Shown: one piece after another, positions 11,959-18,562 of the stretch
Layout: each line of letters starts with the position of its first letter
Position numbering within the stretch: the stretch's first letter is position 1
Source: a virus
IMG/VR virus record: IMGVR_UViG_3300010151_000080
Span: 1-31,405 of that record
Reading direction: 5' to 3' (one strand)
Length of the DNA stretch: 31,405 bases
Made by a program: the position numbers and the translations under genes
Notes under the pieces: generated by a model
What the model saw: the letters and a program-made list of their open reading frames with translations, nothing else
Database searches by the model: none
Told to the model about the DNA's origin: nothing

Positions 11959-14900
11959 ATGGCAGAATCTAAAAATAGTTTTATAAGATCCAAAATGAAT
12001 AAGGATCTTGATGAAAGATTAATCCCTAATAATGAATATAGAGATGCACATAATATTGCTATATCTAGGTCAGAAGGTAGTGATGTAGGAGCGTTAGAGG
12101 CTATTTTAGGTAATGAAAGAATATATCAAAATGCCATGGGGTTAGAAGCTATAGGATTTTATGTAGACGAAACTAATGGATATGTTTATTATATGCTTAC
12201 AAATTGGGATGGAACTGGAGAAATTCCATCTACAGCTATATGCCAAATATGTAGGTATAGTCCTAGTAGTAATTCTCATCTTATATTAGTAGGTGGGCCT
12301 GCCGCGGGTGATGGAAGATTTTTAAATTTTTCTACTGCTTCTCATATATATGGTATAAATTTAATTGAAGAATTATTATTCTGGACAGACAACTTAAATC
12401 AACCTAGAAAAATAAATGTTAGAACAGCCTCAAGTAGCCCAGGGGCTAGTGGATATTATCAAACTGAACAAAGTATATCAGTATGTAAATATTCTCCATT
12501 TTTAGCACCAGCTGTTATTGATTTAAGAGTTCAGGCGGTACAGTATGATTTACCTAGCACTGTAATTAGCCCTTCTACAATGAGCGATGGAGCGGATCAA
12601 CCTTATATAAGAATTGATTTAATTGATTGGACTACAGAAAACTTAAGTGTATCACGTTACAGAAATGGTGATGAAATATCACAAGCTCTTACTCCGGCTC
12701 AATGGGAAGATTTTAATACGGCGGGAACAGGGGCTTTTTGTTATTATGATTTTGAATTAGCAAATGATGTAGTATATGGGAAATTATATAATAAATATGC
12801 AGTTGAAGACGCAAGGAATTTAGCTCCTTATGGATATACTCTAGCTACTGATTCAGATTATGCGGCTCTTCTTTTAGGAAATGGTGGTAGTGGGGATGAA
12901 GATTCAGCTTTAGCATTAAAATCAATTAATTTATGGACTAATCCAGGGAATAATACAAGTGGTTTTGATGGACTACCCGCAGGAGAAATAAGTACTCTAG
13001 GTGATTTTAGTAATATAGCACCCCCTGCAGATCCTGCAGACTCTGAGAGTGCTACTTTTTGGACTAGCGACGCTACTGATGATTATTTAACTTTACCTCA
13101 AGTTAACGCTACTGGGGCGGTATTAACAGCTGGCGGAGCTACTGCAGTAGTTGATGGAACTCAATCAGCAGTTCCAATTGGTACAAATATAGATATAACT
13201 ACAGTAACAGGGGCACTAGCCGCGGGCAGCAAGTGTTATTTAGCAACTGTTTTTCAAGGGAACGTTACAGAAACTAACGGATCAACTACTATGAAATTAG
13301 ACGCTATAGTTAGTTTTACTAATCTTGATGCATTAACTTTTACTAACAAAGGAGTAGGTAGATCAATAAGATTAACGCGAGATACTACTTTTAAAGGGTG
13401 GCAAGGTGATCCAGAATTATTAAAAGATAAATTTGTAAGATTTAGTTATAGATTTAAATATGATGATGATGAATATTCATTAATAGCTCCTTTTACACAA
13501 GAATGTTTTATACCACAGCAAAAGGGACATTTTGTCAATAAAGACGAAGAAGCTGCCTTTAGAACGACTATTATAGAGTTTATGCAAAATAATATAAATA
13601 ATATTATATTAAACATTGAACTTCCTTCATTAGATATTATAACTGATTATAAAGTAAAAGAAATAGATATAGTATTTAAAGAATCTGATGCTTTAGATTA
13701 TAAAATATTACAAAATGTTCCAGTAAATGCTAATTTTATAGCTAATCTTAATAATACCCCTATATATCAATATACTTATCAATCAACACTTCCCTATAAA
13801 ACCTTACCAGTGGATGAAACCACTAGAGTATATGATAAAGTGCCAGTTAAGGCATTAGCTCAAGAAATTGTAGCTAACCGGGTTATGTATGCTAATTTTA
13901 CACAAAGCTACGATGAACCAATTGGTCTAGATTATTATGTAGAAAAATCTGATAAAGATGTTCAAATTCACGAAGAATATCCTAATCATTCTGTAAAACA
14001 AAATAGAAATTATCAGGTAGGTATTGTATTAGCAGATAAATGGGGGAGACAAAGTGATGTAATTTTATCTTCAAAAGATAATGTATTAGTAGCTGGGGGT
14101 GAGCCTGTAGAGGGTTCTAATTATTTTACTACATATAAACCTATTTCGTTTGCAGGGGATATAGAGAGTTGGAATGGGCAAGAATTAAACTTAATATTTG
14201 ATAGTATTATCACCGCCCCTTCAAGCGATGGATTATATGCTAATCCTAATAATTATATAGTAGAAGAACCTTATTCATCACCTTGGCCTGGGTTTTTAAA
14301 TTGGAGTACACAAGAAATTGCTACTGTAGCGGATCAAACAGCTTATACTTTTACAAATCTTTCACAACAAGATTTAAGTGCTACTATATTATTTACACTT
14401 TGGTTAAACACAGGATCAGGATGGAGTTTAGTAGATGCCGCCACATATGGAGTAACTGATAGTGGTGATGATGAAATAGTTGTAACTTTTACTTCTGGAG
14501 AGCCTGCTACTACAGGCTATAAATTAAGGGGTAGGGTATTATATGATACGCAGTATAGATATGAAATAGATTATATTCCAGCAGCCTCTGGCCCTACTGC
14601 TACTATAGCGTCTACAAATTTAGTACATTCTATAACTACAAATACTGTGGATGGGACTGATGGTACTTACAATGCTGCGGCATGGACAACTAGTGGCGAT
14701 GGAGTAGACTTGGTAATTAATGTAACTGTATTAAGTCATAAAGTAACCGCAATAGCCGTAGCCACTACAGGAAATAAATTTAATGTAGGCGATACTATAA
14801 CTATAGGAACTACAGTTATTGGGGGGAGTACTCCTGTAGTAGTAACTTTAGTTGAATCAGACATGGTACCTGGTGCATCTGGAATATTTAATGCAGGAAA

Positions 14901-17253
14901 ATTTTTAAGAGGGAAATATACTGACTATGTAAAAATACAATCATTATCTCAAATTGCAAGTAATAATAGGTATTTATTTTATACTAATAAAGAAATTGCG
15001 GATAACTATATGTGGCAAGGGGACACTACTGTTTCTTCAAATACATCTACAAGAACCGAACCTTTCACAGATGAAAATGTAAATAATTCTACCTATAATT
15101 TAAATCAATTAGGATGGTATTCTTATAGAGTAGTAATAAAGCAACAAGAGCAAGAATATTATAATGTATATTTACCAGGTATAATAAATGGATACCCTTA
15201 TCAACAACCCACTTCCAACCCGCAGCCCCTTGAATTAGATGAAGTAGCTTTTTGTGTTTTAGTTCATGACAATATTAATAAAGTACCCCGAGATTTATCA
15301 GACGTCGCTCCACAAGATGTTCAGTATAATAGCGGGGTTACTTGGTTCGGAAGAGTAGAAAATAATGATCAAGCAGATTCATATAACACTCAATATGTTC
15401 CTACTTCTAATCCAGATAGTGTGTCATTACTTGGGACTTCTACTAATTTATTCCCTGGAATGGCTTATGCTGGTGGAGCTGGAGAAGTAAATCCAGACGC
15501 TGTATTTGATGTAGATCAAAGACCTATTATGGCTAAAATTTCTACTCAAAATACAATAGGGTTGACAGAAGGCACTTTTGTGGCCCCGGTTACGGGCAGC
15601 GAATATCCAAGAGCTATGGGATTATCAGTATATGAAACTAGCCCTACAGTAAGTCAATTGGAATTATTCTGGGAATCGTCTACTTCAGGATTAATATCAG
15701 ATTTAAATACTGCTGTTGTAACTGAAGGTACTAAAATAAATGGAATAACTGATACAGATGTTTCGATAGAAGAAAATGATTGTGCAGGCACACAAATATC
15801 AAGTGTATTTTTCCCAACAACTCCAGCTGGTAATGATCTGACTACTACTGCAACTTTAGCAGTAAAAGAATATAATGAAAATGGATCTATAAATACAGGC
15901 TCAGATAGAACTGCAGATTTTAGTTTAGTGCAGGTTACTGTTGGGGCAAATCAGGGTGGATATTATTTAAGATTAGTTAATCCTCAATCTTGTACACCTA
16001 ATACTTATCCTTGGACAGAACATTATTGGTTTGAAATAACATTTACACAGGCTGATGGTACAGTAGCTATTCATAGTATTGGGAATAGCTCAACTGCATT
16101 AATAAATAAACCTCCTTTAGTAGAACTAGGGTTATCTCCTAATGTAAAGGTTACTGAGGAAGTAATTTTAAGACCTCATTCAACTTATAACTTCAGCGGC
16201 ACTAATGCAGGGTTTGTTAAAGGATGGAATGGAAGTTGTAATACTTGTGAATCTACAAGTAATTTAAAATGGGTTATTTTTTCTATTAATATTGCAGATG
16301 TAAATAATAATGCTACAATAAGTGGCGGAGCGACAGGTGAGGCTGCAACGGCAGATGATATTGATTATTATTTTCGTACGGTTAATGACGGAATGATTCC
16401 AGGAGGAATGGATTGTGAGAATGTTCCTGCAGATAATTATTGGGGAGTAGAATTACGAAGGAGAAGTAGTTATAATTGGAATCCAGTTCAACATACTTTA
16501 AATTTAAGGTTATATGATACCAATGGTTCTGAAGCTTTTACGGATTTAGAAGTATTATTTACCCCGCAAGATGTAAGATATGACGACTTAGTTGTTTATT
16601 CTTATTATAATACTTGGGACCCACCTACTGCTGCTTATGCTCAAACAACAAGTTTAACAGGCATGGGCCCTGGATGTCAAAACCCAGGCACCCCGGTATT
16701 ACCTGCTTTTGTAGGGGAAATACAAAATTGGAAAAGTACAGACCAACATATATGGATTGATACTCAATCGACTGCCACTACAGGTACTACAGTAATGTCA
16801 TGGTCAGCGGGTGGTATTGTACCGACTTCAGATTTAATCCCTCCAGCAAATGGAGCAGGAGACGATTCAGGGAGTGTTTCTCCTTGGGAGTCTGGAACTT
16901 TTCCTAATACTAATGTTTATGATGTTCCAAATCCCTGGGCAGGAGCCTTGGTGCCGCTTGTTAAGCTAAAAGGATTTAATCCTTCTCAAGCCCAAATAAA
17001 TGCTGGAGTAACACCTGGCGATAAAGGGAGTCTTGATGGGGTAGATTATGATTGGAGTAAATGTGTAGTTGTTAATTTTAACTTACTTGTAAGTGATATG
17101 GAATGTGGAGAAGGACAAACTCTTACATTAAAATATTCTCCAAACGATACTCCTCCATATGTTGGAATTACTAATGTACAACAAATATCCCCTACTACGC
17201 CACCAGTAATTGGAACCGATTATCCATTTGATGGACCTTGGCCTGGGGCGTAA
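11959..17253 (+). CDS. muzzle/tail-hub protein with an inserted FISUMP domain
   Basis: This 1764-residue protein is the largest tail component. The N-terminus (KNSFIRSKMNKDLDERLIPN, then EYRDAHNIAISRSEGSDVG) is the hallmark of the crAss-like stabilisation/muzzle protein. The core continues at about residue 492 (FVRFSYRFKYDDDEYSLIAP) and residues 600-660 (KVPVKALAQEIVANRVMYAN). Between these lies a FISUMP domain at about residues 270-372: YGKLYNKYAV, LAPYGYTLATDSDY, TSGFDGLPAGE, ATFWTSD. A beta-sandwich insert lies at about 782-862 and a DGTY/GDTITI domain at about 895-966. The last 490 residues are Thr/Ser/Asn-rich, with eight cysteines including a C-x-x-C pair at 1427/1430. There is no signal peptide or membrane segment. 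It probably forms the tail tip and may touch the host surface. Homology is from memory. Confidence 0.8.
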   Translation: MAESKNSFIRSKMNKDLDERLIPNNEYRDAHNIAISRSEGSDVGALEAILGNERIYQNAMGLEAIGFYVDETNGYVYYMLTNWDGTGEIPSTAICQICRYSPSSNSHLILVGGPAAGDGRFLNFSTASHIYGINLIEELLFWTDNLNQPRKINVRTASSSPGASGYYQTEQSISVCKYSPFLAPAVIDLRVQAVQYDLPSTVISPSTMSDGADQPYIRIDLIDWTTENLSVSRYRNGDEISQALTPAQWEDFNTAGTGAFCYYDFELANDVVYGKLYNKYAVEDARNLAPYGYTLATDSDYAALLLGNGGSGDEDSALALKSINLWTNPGNNTSGFDGLPAGEISTLGDFSNIAPPADPADSESATFWTSDATDDYLTLPQVNATGAVLTAGGATAVVDGTQSAVPIGTNIDITTVTGALAAGSKCYLATVFQGNVTETNGSTTMKLDAIVSFTNLDALTFTNKGVGRSIRLTRDTTFKGWQGDPELLKDKFVRFSYRFKYDDDEYSLIAPFTQECFIPQQKGHFVNKDEEAAFRTTIIEFMQNNINNIILNIELPSLDIITDYKVKEIDIVFKESDALDYKILQNVPVNANFIANLNNTPIYQYTYQSTLPYKTLPVDETTRVYDKVPVKALAQEIVANRVMYANFTQSYDEPIGLDYYVEKSDKDVQIHEEYPNHSVKQNRNYQVGIVLADKWGRQSDVILSSKDNVLVAGGEPVEGSNYFTTYKPISFAGDIESWNGQELNLIFDSIITAPSSDGLYANPNNYIVEEPYSSPWPGFLNWSTQEIATVADQTAYTFTNLSQQDLSATILFTLWLNTGSGWSLVDAATYGVTDSGDDEIVVTFTSGEPATTGYKLRGRVLYDTQYRYEIDYIPAASGPTATIASTNLVHSITTNTVDGTDGTYNAAAWTTSGDGVDLVINVTVLSHKVTAIAVATTGNKFNVGDTITIGTTVIGGSTPVVVTLVESDMVPGASGIFNAGKFLRGKYTDYVKIQSLSQIASNNRYLFYTNKEIADNYMWQGDTTVSSNTSTRTEPFTDENVNNSTYNLNQLGWYSYRVVIKQQEQEYYNVYLPGIINGYPYQQPTSNPQPLELDEVAFCVLVHDNINKVPRDLSDVAPQDVQYNSGVTWFGRVENNDQADSYNTQYVPTSNPDSVSLLGTSTNLFPGMAYAGGAGEVNPDAVFDVDQRPIMAKISTQNTIGLTEGTFVAPVTGSEYPRAMGLSVYETSPTVSQLELFWESSTSGLISDLNTAVVTEGTKINGITDTDVSIEENDCAGTQISSVFFPTTPAGNDLTTTATLAVKEYNENGSINTGSDRTADFSLVQVTVGANQGGYYLRLVNPQSCTPNTYPWTEHYWFEITFTQADGTVAIHSIGNSSTALINKPPLVELGLSPNVKVTEEVILRPHSTYNFSGTNAGFVKGWNGSCNTCESTSNLKWVIFSINIADVNNNATISGGATGEAATADDIDYYFRTVNDGMIPGGMDCENVPADNYWGVELRRRSSYNWNPVQHTLNLRLYDTNGSEAFTDLEVLFTPQDVRYDDLVVYSYYNTWDPPTAAYAQTTSLTGMGPGCQNPGTPVLPAFVGEIQNWKSTDQHIWIDTQSTATTGTTVMSWSAGGIVPTSDLIPPANGAGDDSGSVSPWESGTFPNTNVYDVPNPWAGALVPLVKLKGFNPSQAQINAGVTPGDKGSLDGVDYDWSKCVVVNFNLLVSDMECGEGQTLTLKYSPNDTPPYVGITNVQQISPTTPPVIGTDYPFDGPWPGA

Positions 17254-17281: not shown

Positions 17282-18562
17282 ATGGCAGCGACTATACAAA
17301 TACAATATTTTAATACATACATTCTAAAGAAAATCAATTTAGTATCGGCTCAGGCTACTGCTTATAATTGGTATGTAGAAGAATCTCGTATAAAAGGGGA
17401 TTTTAATAAACCTTTTGCAGGTATTGCTCCGCGTGCTTATATAGTTGCAGATTTGCCTGGCCAACAATATTTAGGTAATAGTATAATTTATTCTGGTATA
17501 TTTAATTCTAGAACTGGTGTTAATGAAACTAATCAATTTTCTATAGCTAATGATATAACTAGAACCGTAGATCCTGCTAAAGGCAGTATACAAAAACTTT
17601 ATGCTGAAGATACAAATTTAGTTATATTCCAAGAACGAAAAGTTAATAGAGCTCTTATAGATAAAGATGCTATTTATACAGCTGAAGGAAATCCTATTAC
17701 TACTAGTACCAATTTAGTTATAGGGCAAGTTCAACCTTATGCTGGGGAGTTTGGCATTGGTACTCATCCAGAATCTTTTGCTGTGTATGGATATAGAAAA
17801 TATTTTGCCGATGCAACCAAGGGATCTATAATGCGATTATCTCAAGACGGTCTTACTGAAATATCTAACTATGGTATGTATGATTATTTTAGAGATTCCT
17901 TATCTTCATTGAATGGAGGTAGAATTGCTGGTGGATGGGATATTCATAATAAAGTTTATACACTTTCTACCCAACCAGGGGTTAATACAGCAGCAGATTC
18001 ACGAACATTAACATTTGATGAAAGTGTACTTGGGTGGCCTAGCTTTTTTAGTTATACTCCTGATTTTATATTTAGCTTAGCTAATTCTTTTTATAGTATA
18101 TTTAATGGAGATATATACCGACATTATTCTAACAATGTTAATAGAGCTTATTTTTATAATGATGATAATGCCTCTCGTGTAACTACTATTTTCAATACTA
18201 ATCCTTCACTAGTTAAATCTTTTAAAACTATAAATTATGAAGGAGGGAATAACTGGAGTTTAGCCTCTTTAACTACAAACCAAGATACTGCTAACCCTGT
18301 TGATGTATTTACATTACCAGCTAGCTTAGCTGATTTTGAAAATAATTATTTAAAAAATACCTTTAAACCAAAAGAAGATAAATATTTTGCTAATATTATA
18401 AACACTACTCCAATTGCTGGAGGTGAGGTTATATATGGCAATTCAATATCTGGAGTTAAAGGATTTTTTGCAACAGCAACTTTTAGTGCTACAAATACAG
18501 CAACCTCAGGAACAAATGAATTATTTGCGGTTTCTACAGAATTTGTAGAATCATCTTATTAA
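17282..18562 (+). CDS. second muzzle component (C-terminal muzzle-like protein)
   Basis: This 426-residue beta-rich protein looks like the C-terminal part of crAss-like muzzle/stabilisation proteins, which I recall as one longer chain in many relatives. Diagnostic segments are KGSIQKLYAEDTNLVIFQER (about residues 100-119), VQPYAGEFGIGTHPESFAVY (about 156-175), and GYRKYFADATKGSIMRLSQD followed by GLTEISNYGMYDYFRDSL (about 176-213). The repeating strand pattern suggests a beta-propeller or stacked-sheet fold. It starts 28 bases after the large muzzle gene, with a normal A/T leader and its own ATG, so a functional split is likelier than a frameshifted remnant. It probably assembles with the 1764-residue protein at the tail tip. 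No enzymatic motif is seen. Confidence 0.75.
   Translation: MAATIQIQYFNTYILKKINLVSAQATAYNWYVEESRIKGDFNKPFAGIAPRAYIVADLPGQQYLGNSIIYSGIFNSRTGVNETNQFSIANDITRTVDPAKGSIQKLYAEDTNLVIFQERKVNRALIDKDAIYTAEGNPITTSTNLVIGQVQPYAGEFGIGTHPESFAVYGYRKYFADATKGSIMRLSQDGLTEISNYGMYDYFRDSLSSLNGGRIAGGWDIHNKVYTLSTQPGVNTAADSRTLTFDESVLGWPSFFSYTPDFIFSLANSFYSIFNGDIYRHYSNNVNRAYFYNDDNASRVTTIFNTNPSLVKSFKTINYEGGNNWSLASLTTNQDTANPVDVFTLPASLADFENNYLKNTFKPKEDKYFANIINTTPIAGGEVIYGNSISGVKGFFATATFSATNTATSGTNELFAVSTEFVESSY

Follow-up and report, generated by a model that had tools for sequence, protein, structure and literature searches.

What is a domain of cellular surface-type proteins, fused in one such case to a fimbrillin-like domain, doing in the middle of a phage tail-tip protein, and how did it come to be there? 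The question is raised by a fragment of phage DNA – a whole IMG/VR record of 31,405 bases, hereafter the window – whose terminase, portal and tail genes are of crAss-like type, and whose nearest named relatives are MW202828 (Manatee Spring), the Flavobacterium elemo phages and Cellulophaga phages such as phi38:1. A large open reading frame on the plus strand (11959–17253, 1764 amino acids), matched by phrog_14478 (virion structural protein), encodes the muzzle: its model found its best VIA-align match in chains 7qok/7qol of the crAss001 muzzle. The frame holds an N-terminal core, an accessory-domain slot, and the IG and crass-domain region; it is the slot that concerns us here.

The identity of the domain in the slot is clear. 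Pfam-A gave a single match for the whole protein, Fib_succ_major (PF09603), at residues 219–375 (E 6.7e-21; 75.8 bits against a cut-off of 33.9), the family anticipated in a preliminary description from FISUMP motifs at residues 270–372 (12766–13074), which are present as described. NCBIfam TIGR02145, 'FISUMP domain-containing protein', passed as well (42.2 bits, cut-off 41.65), and 18 of 18 slot proteins, that of the window included, matched PF09603 and no other family in earnest. The motif-bearing segment is, however, only the middle of the domain. Its N-terminal part, WTTENLSVSRYRNGD, lies upstream, placing the start at about residue 213, ahead of WTTENLSVSRYRNGD; at the other end, the Pfam match in the window stops early because an insert of 65 amino acids (residues 397–461; 13147–13341, plus strand) precedes the last strand. 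Many relatives without the insert cover the PF09603 profile to its last position, 187, and the window motif GRSIRLTRD, which starts at residue 467 after the insert, aligns with SVRVIKD of these relatives, so that the C-terminal S-[VI]-R motif is present and the domain is full length. It therefore extends from about residue 213 to about 478 (12595–13392, plus strand).

The 65-residue insert is private to the window phage and the identical contig L006; it is absent from the close sister L005, had no other match among the 5,292 open reading frames searched, and falls in the most variable stretch of the FISUMP domain. Insertions are thus nested, the insert within FISUMP and FISUMP within the muzzle. 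The FISUMPs of L008 and L022 carry a different, glycine-rich insert of about 75 residues (TPGTGYTAGTQATT...GYVDGDVITISGGTGG) at another place. Searches of PDB sequences with the muzzle and the FISUMP profile gave nothing useful, with no PDB match for the profile, and PHROGs held no FISUMP family matching these domains. As to a C-type-lectin-like fold, the Foldseek matches of the weak window model were filled by beta-propellers, none at E < 0.001, a result that has no bearing on the fold of FISUMP. Base composition does not clearly point to a recent foreign origin: GC is 0.377 in FISUMP, 0.366 in the C-terminal part of the same gene and 0.294–0.328 in the core.

Two anchors that are kept in nearly all muzzles, ISVxKxxP and KFxRFSYRxK, define the slot. 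In the window the conserved N-terminal core (residues 1–180; 11959–12498) runs up to the anchor ISVCKYSP, and the core restarts with KFVRFSYRFK at F492 (residues 492–751; 13432–14211), the part that entered the trees and the model, close to where the preliminary description had it resume; between them lies a slot of 311 residues (181–491; 12499–13431), all on the plus strand. Across relatives the distance between the anchors ranges from 21 to 311 residues. It is 21–41 in phi38:1, elemo, MW202828 and eleven other loci, 228–311 in FISUMP carriers, 142–168 or 207–210 in further groups, and 131–148 in L082–L084. FISUMP was found in 35 of the 80 nearest viral muzzles, the remainder that reach the slot being without it; as these are the first 80 loci ranked by likeness to the window, the proportion is not a population frequency. 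Because occupancy varies in this way, the FISUMP segment is not part of a universal muzzle core but interrupts it, as the preliminary description had it. The slot is a permissive site, with different domains in different muzzle lineages.

The other occupants tested match no Pfam family. Unrelated stretches of 148–210 residues fill the same slot in sister groups (L050 9902–10351, L053 10547–11176 and L041 10580–11023) and are candidate host-contact domains; in the AlphaFold model of L050 (mean pLDDT 71.8) the slot is a stretch of mixed strand and helix. Among viral contigs, 74 of 80 FISUMPs recovered lay in muzzles, a figure biased towards muzzles and not a rate, the scan having used a single peptide pattern derived from muzzle FISUMPs. 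FISUMP also occurs in viral proteins other than the muzzle (L156, L157, L160–L162, L164 and Microcystis phage Mel-JY01, L086 4992–5633).

Where the slot lies in the muzzle fold can be narrowed by reference to crAss001 gp44. Homology to the N-terminal ring-joining and propeller part of gp44, the mark of a crAss-like muzzle, was found: the N-terminal core aligns with gp44 1–237 (hhalign E 3.5e-8), and its profile scores 31.6 bits in HMMER over gp44 24–155, just ahead of IG1, which spans 163–292 and interrupts the propeller between blades 2 and 3 (PMC10172136). Chains 7qok/7qol also headed structural comparisons with the window model, which is of low confidence (mean pLDDT 59, weak in the C-terminal part of FISUMP; Z 10.2, 213 residues, rmsd 8.9), and with the FISUMP-free L050 model (Z 10.8, 237 residues, rmsd 4.7, gp44 65–385). 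Taken together, the gp44 mapping and the structural matches suggest that the slot sits at the border of blade 2 and IG1 or in the first loop of IG1. A direct hmmsearch with the post-slot core found nothing significant in gp44; we therefore infer the exact loop from the border of the N-terminal core and the structural match, not from a residue-level alignment. An accessory slot at IG1 would stand earlier in the chain than the length variation known from crAss001, which the structure paper puts in the crass and IG2 regions (PMC10172136).

The remainder of the muzzle is encoded separately. An open reading frame of 426 amino acids (17282–18562, plus strand) begins 28 bp past the large one, matches phrog_14478 positions 953–1239 and aligns to gp44 1037–1290 (hhalign E 1.2e-5), the propeller after the crass domain; the C-terminal beta-propeller part is thus present in the window phage as a gene of its own. 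Within the first set, each of the 21 FISUMP loci long enough to include this region shows the same separation, as do several sister groups, while the muzzle is fused in phi38:1, elemo, L065, L067, L072 and L084, and is one chain in crAss001 too. On these alignments the muzzle chain appears to be divided in a large part of the phage group, and the propeller would therefore need to be assembled from two polypeptides. In MW202828 (L002 16665–17216) the muzzle is split elsewhere, and an open reading frame annotated 'putative glycosidase' lies between the two parts.

By analogy with the domain's known relatives – Bacteroides phages and gut bacteria have FISUMP proteins that are putative adhesins diversified by DGRs (PMC8143477, PMC4159848) – we favour, with some reserve, the view that FISUMP is a lectin-like domain repeated on the muzzle, where it would contact the host envelope. 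The domain would lie in a loop at the start of the region matching crAss001 IG1, the Ig-like level below the propeller. Six copies, by analogy with the hexameric crAss001 muzzle, would ring the tail tip, with the variable stretch as binding face, and the ring would make a close-range contact with the envelope that precedes or triggers opening of the muzzle. FISUMP probably helps the phage to touch its Bacteroidota host. The exact IG1 loop, outward exposure, a hexamer, ligand binding and gating are what we infer for the FISUMP muzzle. Counting against host contact by FISUMP is the assignment of cell contact mainly to the crass domain (PMC10172136). Our literature search found no paper linking FISUMP to crAss-like muzzles.

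The origin of the domain can be read from trees. In a tree of the core, built without the slot, FISUMP carriers fall on one side of a branch with support of 95 and the domain needs a single change; the four slot states together need four changes, against a mean of 27 after shuffling. That change, along with the share of nearest muzzles that carry FISUMP, makes the domain an inherited feature of a clade and no peculiarity of the window phage. Muzzle FISUMPs are placed among those of Bacteroidota, for example Flavobacteriaceae and Chitinophagaceae, and the data do not reject a single muzzle clade (p-AU 0.78); no muzzle FISUMP was found to sit, with strong support, within a group of bacterial ones. 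For 59 muzzles, 34 splits are common to the FISUMP tree and the core tree, where shuffling leads one to expect 0.23, and no splits with support of at least 90 conflict; FISUMP has evolved faster (mean identity 45%, against 62% and 68% in two core parts). That single phages have captured host FISUMP modules recently and repeatedly, a reading to which the presence of Flavobacteriaceae and Chitinophagaceae among the nearest non-muzzle FISUMPs would lend itself, is on the evidence of the single change, the unrejected clade and the shared splits very unlikely. The exchange with a Bacteroidota host that had been proposed survives, then, as at most one old acquisition, the agreement of the two trees leaving no sign of recent or repeated transfer. 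These patterns fit one old gain, the source being an adhesin pool of Bacteroidota type and the likeliest route recombination with DNA of a host or prophage; FISUMP has since been inherited with the muzzle. A Flavobacteriaceae MAG contig, L166, carries the same muzzle with a FISUMP identical to that of L011, a hint of Flavobacteriaceae as the host group, bearing in mind that viral contigs can be misbinned. That the whole arrangement might reflect chance similarity or an assembly chimera, a reading with nothing in its favour, has a negligible probability: it is refuted by scores above two curated cut-offs, PF09603 and TIGR02145, and by the recurrence of the architecture across tens of contigs that come from different metagenomes.

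As to what the domain does, dN/dS between the window and L005 is 0.07 in the N-terminal core, 0.17 in the core after the slot and 0.30 in FISUMP (0.49 in its C-terminal part); this purifying selection on FISUMP argues for a working domain. Column entropy peaks at residues 375–464 (2.6–2.9 bits, against core means of 0.9–1.1), within a variable stretch from W368 to R471 that measures 24 to 95 residues across muzzles. The main rival to host contact is a structural or docking module without a host ligand, which would give the muzzle stiffness or keep tail fibres or adjoining subunits in place. Strict vertical inheritance with the core, congruent instead of swapped, would suit such a role, as would purifying selection, the single copy in a fixed place (of 50 phage records searched, 31 were positive, and each of these had one FISUMP), the filling of the slot in sister clades by unrelated stretches of similar size, and a FISUMP whose variability does not exceed that of the C-terminal crass region (dN/dS 0.33). 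We nonetheless consider a purely structural role unlikely, given that variation is strongest near the domain end, the stretch diversified in DGR-borne relatives, and that related phages have no domain there at all (the slots of 21–41 residues). The peak towards the domain end falls where the DGR variable repeat is put in the diversified FISUMP/DUF1566 proteins of Bacteroides phages, namely the C-terminal 35 residues (PMC8143477); FISUMP is similar to DUF1566 (PMC4159848). Might the muzzle FISUMP itself be a DGR target, with a reverse transcriptase encoded elsewhere in the genome hypermutating its C-terminal part? Fib_succ_major is among the domains known to be targeted by DGRs (PMC4159848, PMC8143477), and a DGR of a crAss-like phage is known, though aimed at a tail-collar fibre (PMC7290462). 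Yet no RVT_1 match was found when the clade and its neighbours were searched (50 records, several longer than 50 kb, all being fragments or of unknown completeness and the window itself a fragment); the FISUMPs of the separate contigs L011, L043 and L166 are identical; and the variable stretch is internal to the gene instead of at its 3′ end. With the required DGR-type reverse transcriptase not found we rejected this candidate, to which we give even less credence than to repeated capture. The entropy pattern fits a putative binding face that varies without a DGR.

Returning to FISUMP as a domain of host contact, a broader reading suggests itself, one that we put forward tentatively, at somewhat less than even chances: in environmental crAss-like phages the loop at the start of IG1 may serve generally as the place where host-contact domains specific to a lineage are docked, the muzzle being itself a receptor-binding protein and its accessory domain, here FISUMP, sensing the host and opening the tail gate. 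Little is known of the receptor-binding parts of crAss-like phages. The slot keeps its place in a well-conserved protein of the tail tip, with a recognisable host adhesion domain as occupant in one clade and some other stretch in the sister clades; its occupants make up a short list of candidate receptor-binding modules, each of which can be produced on its own and assayed.

With crAss001 gp44 (1371 amino acids; PDB 7QOK/7QOL), its best structural match, the window muzzle shares a homologous N-terminal core and recognisable propeller parts, but gp44 is without FISUMP and is one chain, whereas in the window two genes encode the propeller. The muzzles of Cellulophaga phi38:1, Flavobacterium elemo and MW202828 have gene order and muzzle core in common with the window; they differ in a slot of 21–23 residues without FISUMP and, in phi38:1 and elemo, in being fused. 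To FISUMP/Fib_succ_major domains (PF09603, TIGR02145) the window copy corresponds in profile, in motifs (NL..Y.NGD, CYY, YG.LYN.YAV, LAP.G, W, G, SVR..KD) and, in its relatives, in length; unlike them it is internal to a phage tail-tip protein, not at the end of a protein of cell-surface type, and holds the 65-residue insert. The DGR-diversified FISUMP/DUF1566 proteins of Bacuni phages (PMC8143477) and the tentaclins (PMC10743442) resemble it as phage-borne domains of the C-type-lectin-like group with a putative role in receptor binding, but the window FISUMP lies inside the muzzle and not in a separate target gene, and no reverse transcriptase was found in the records searched.
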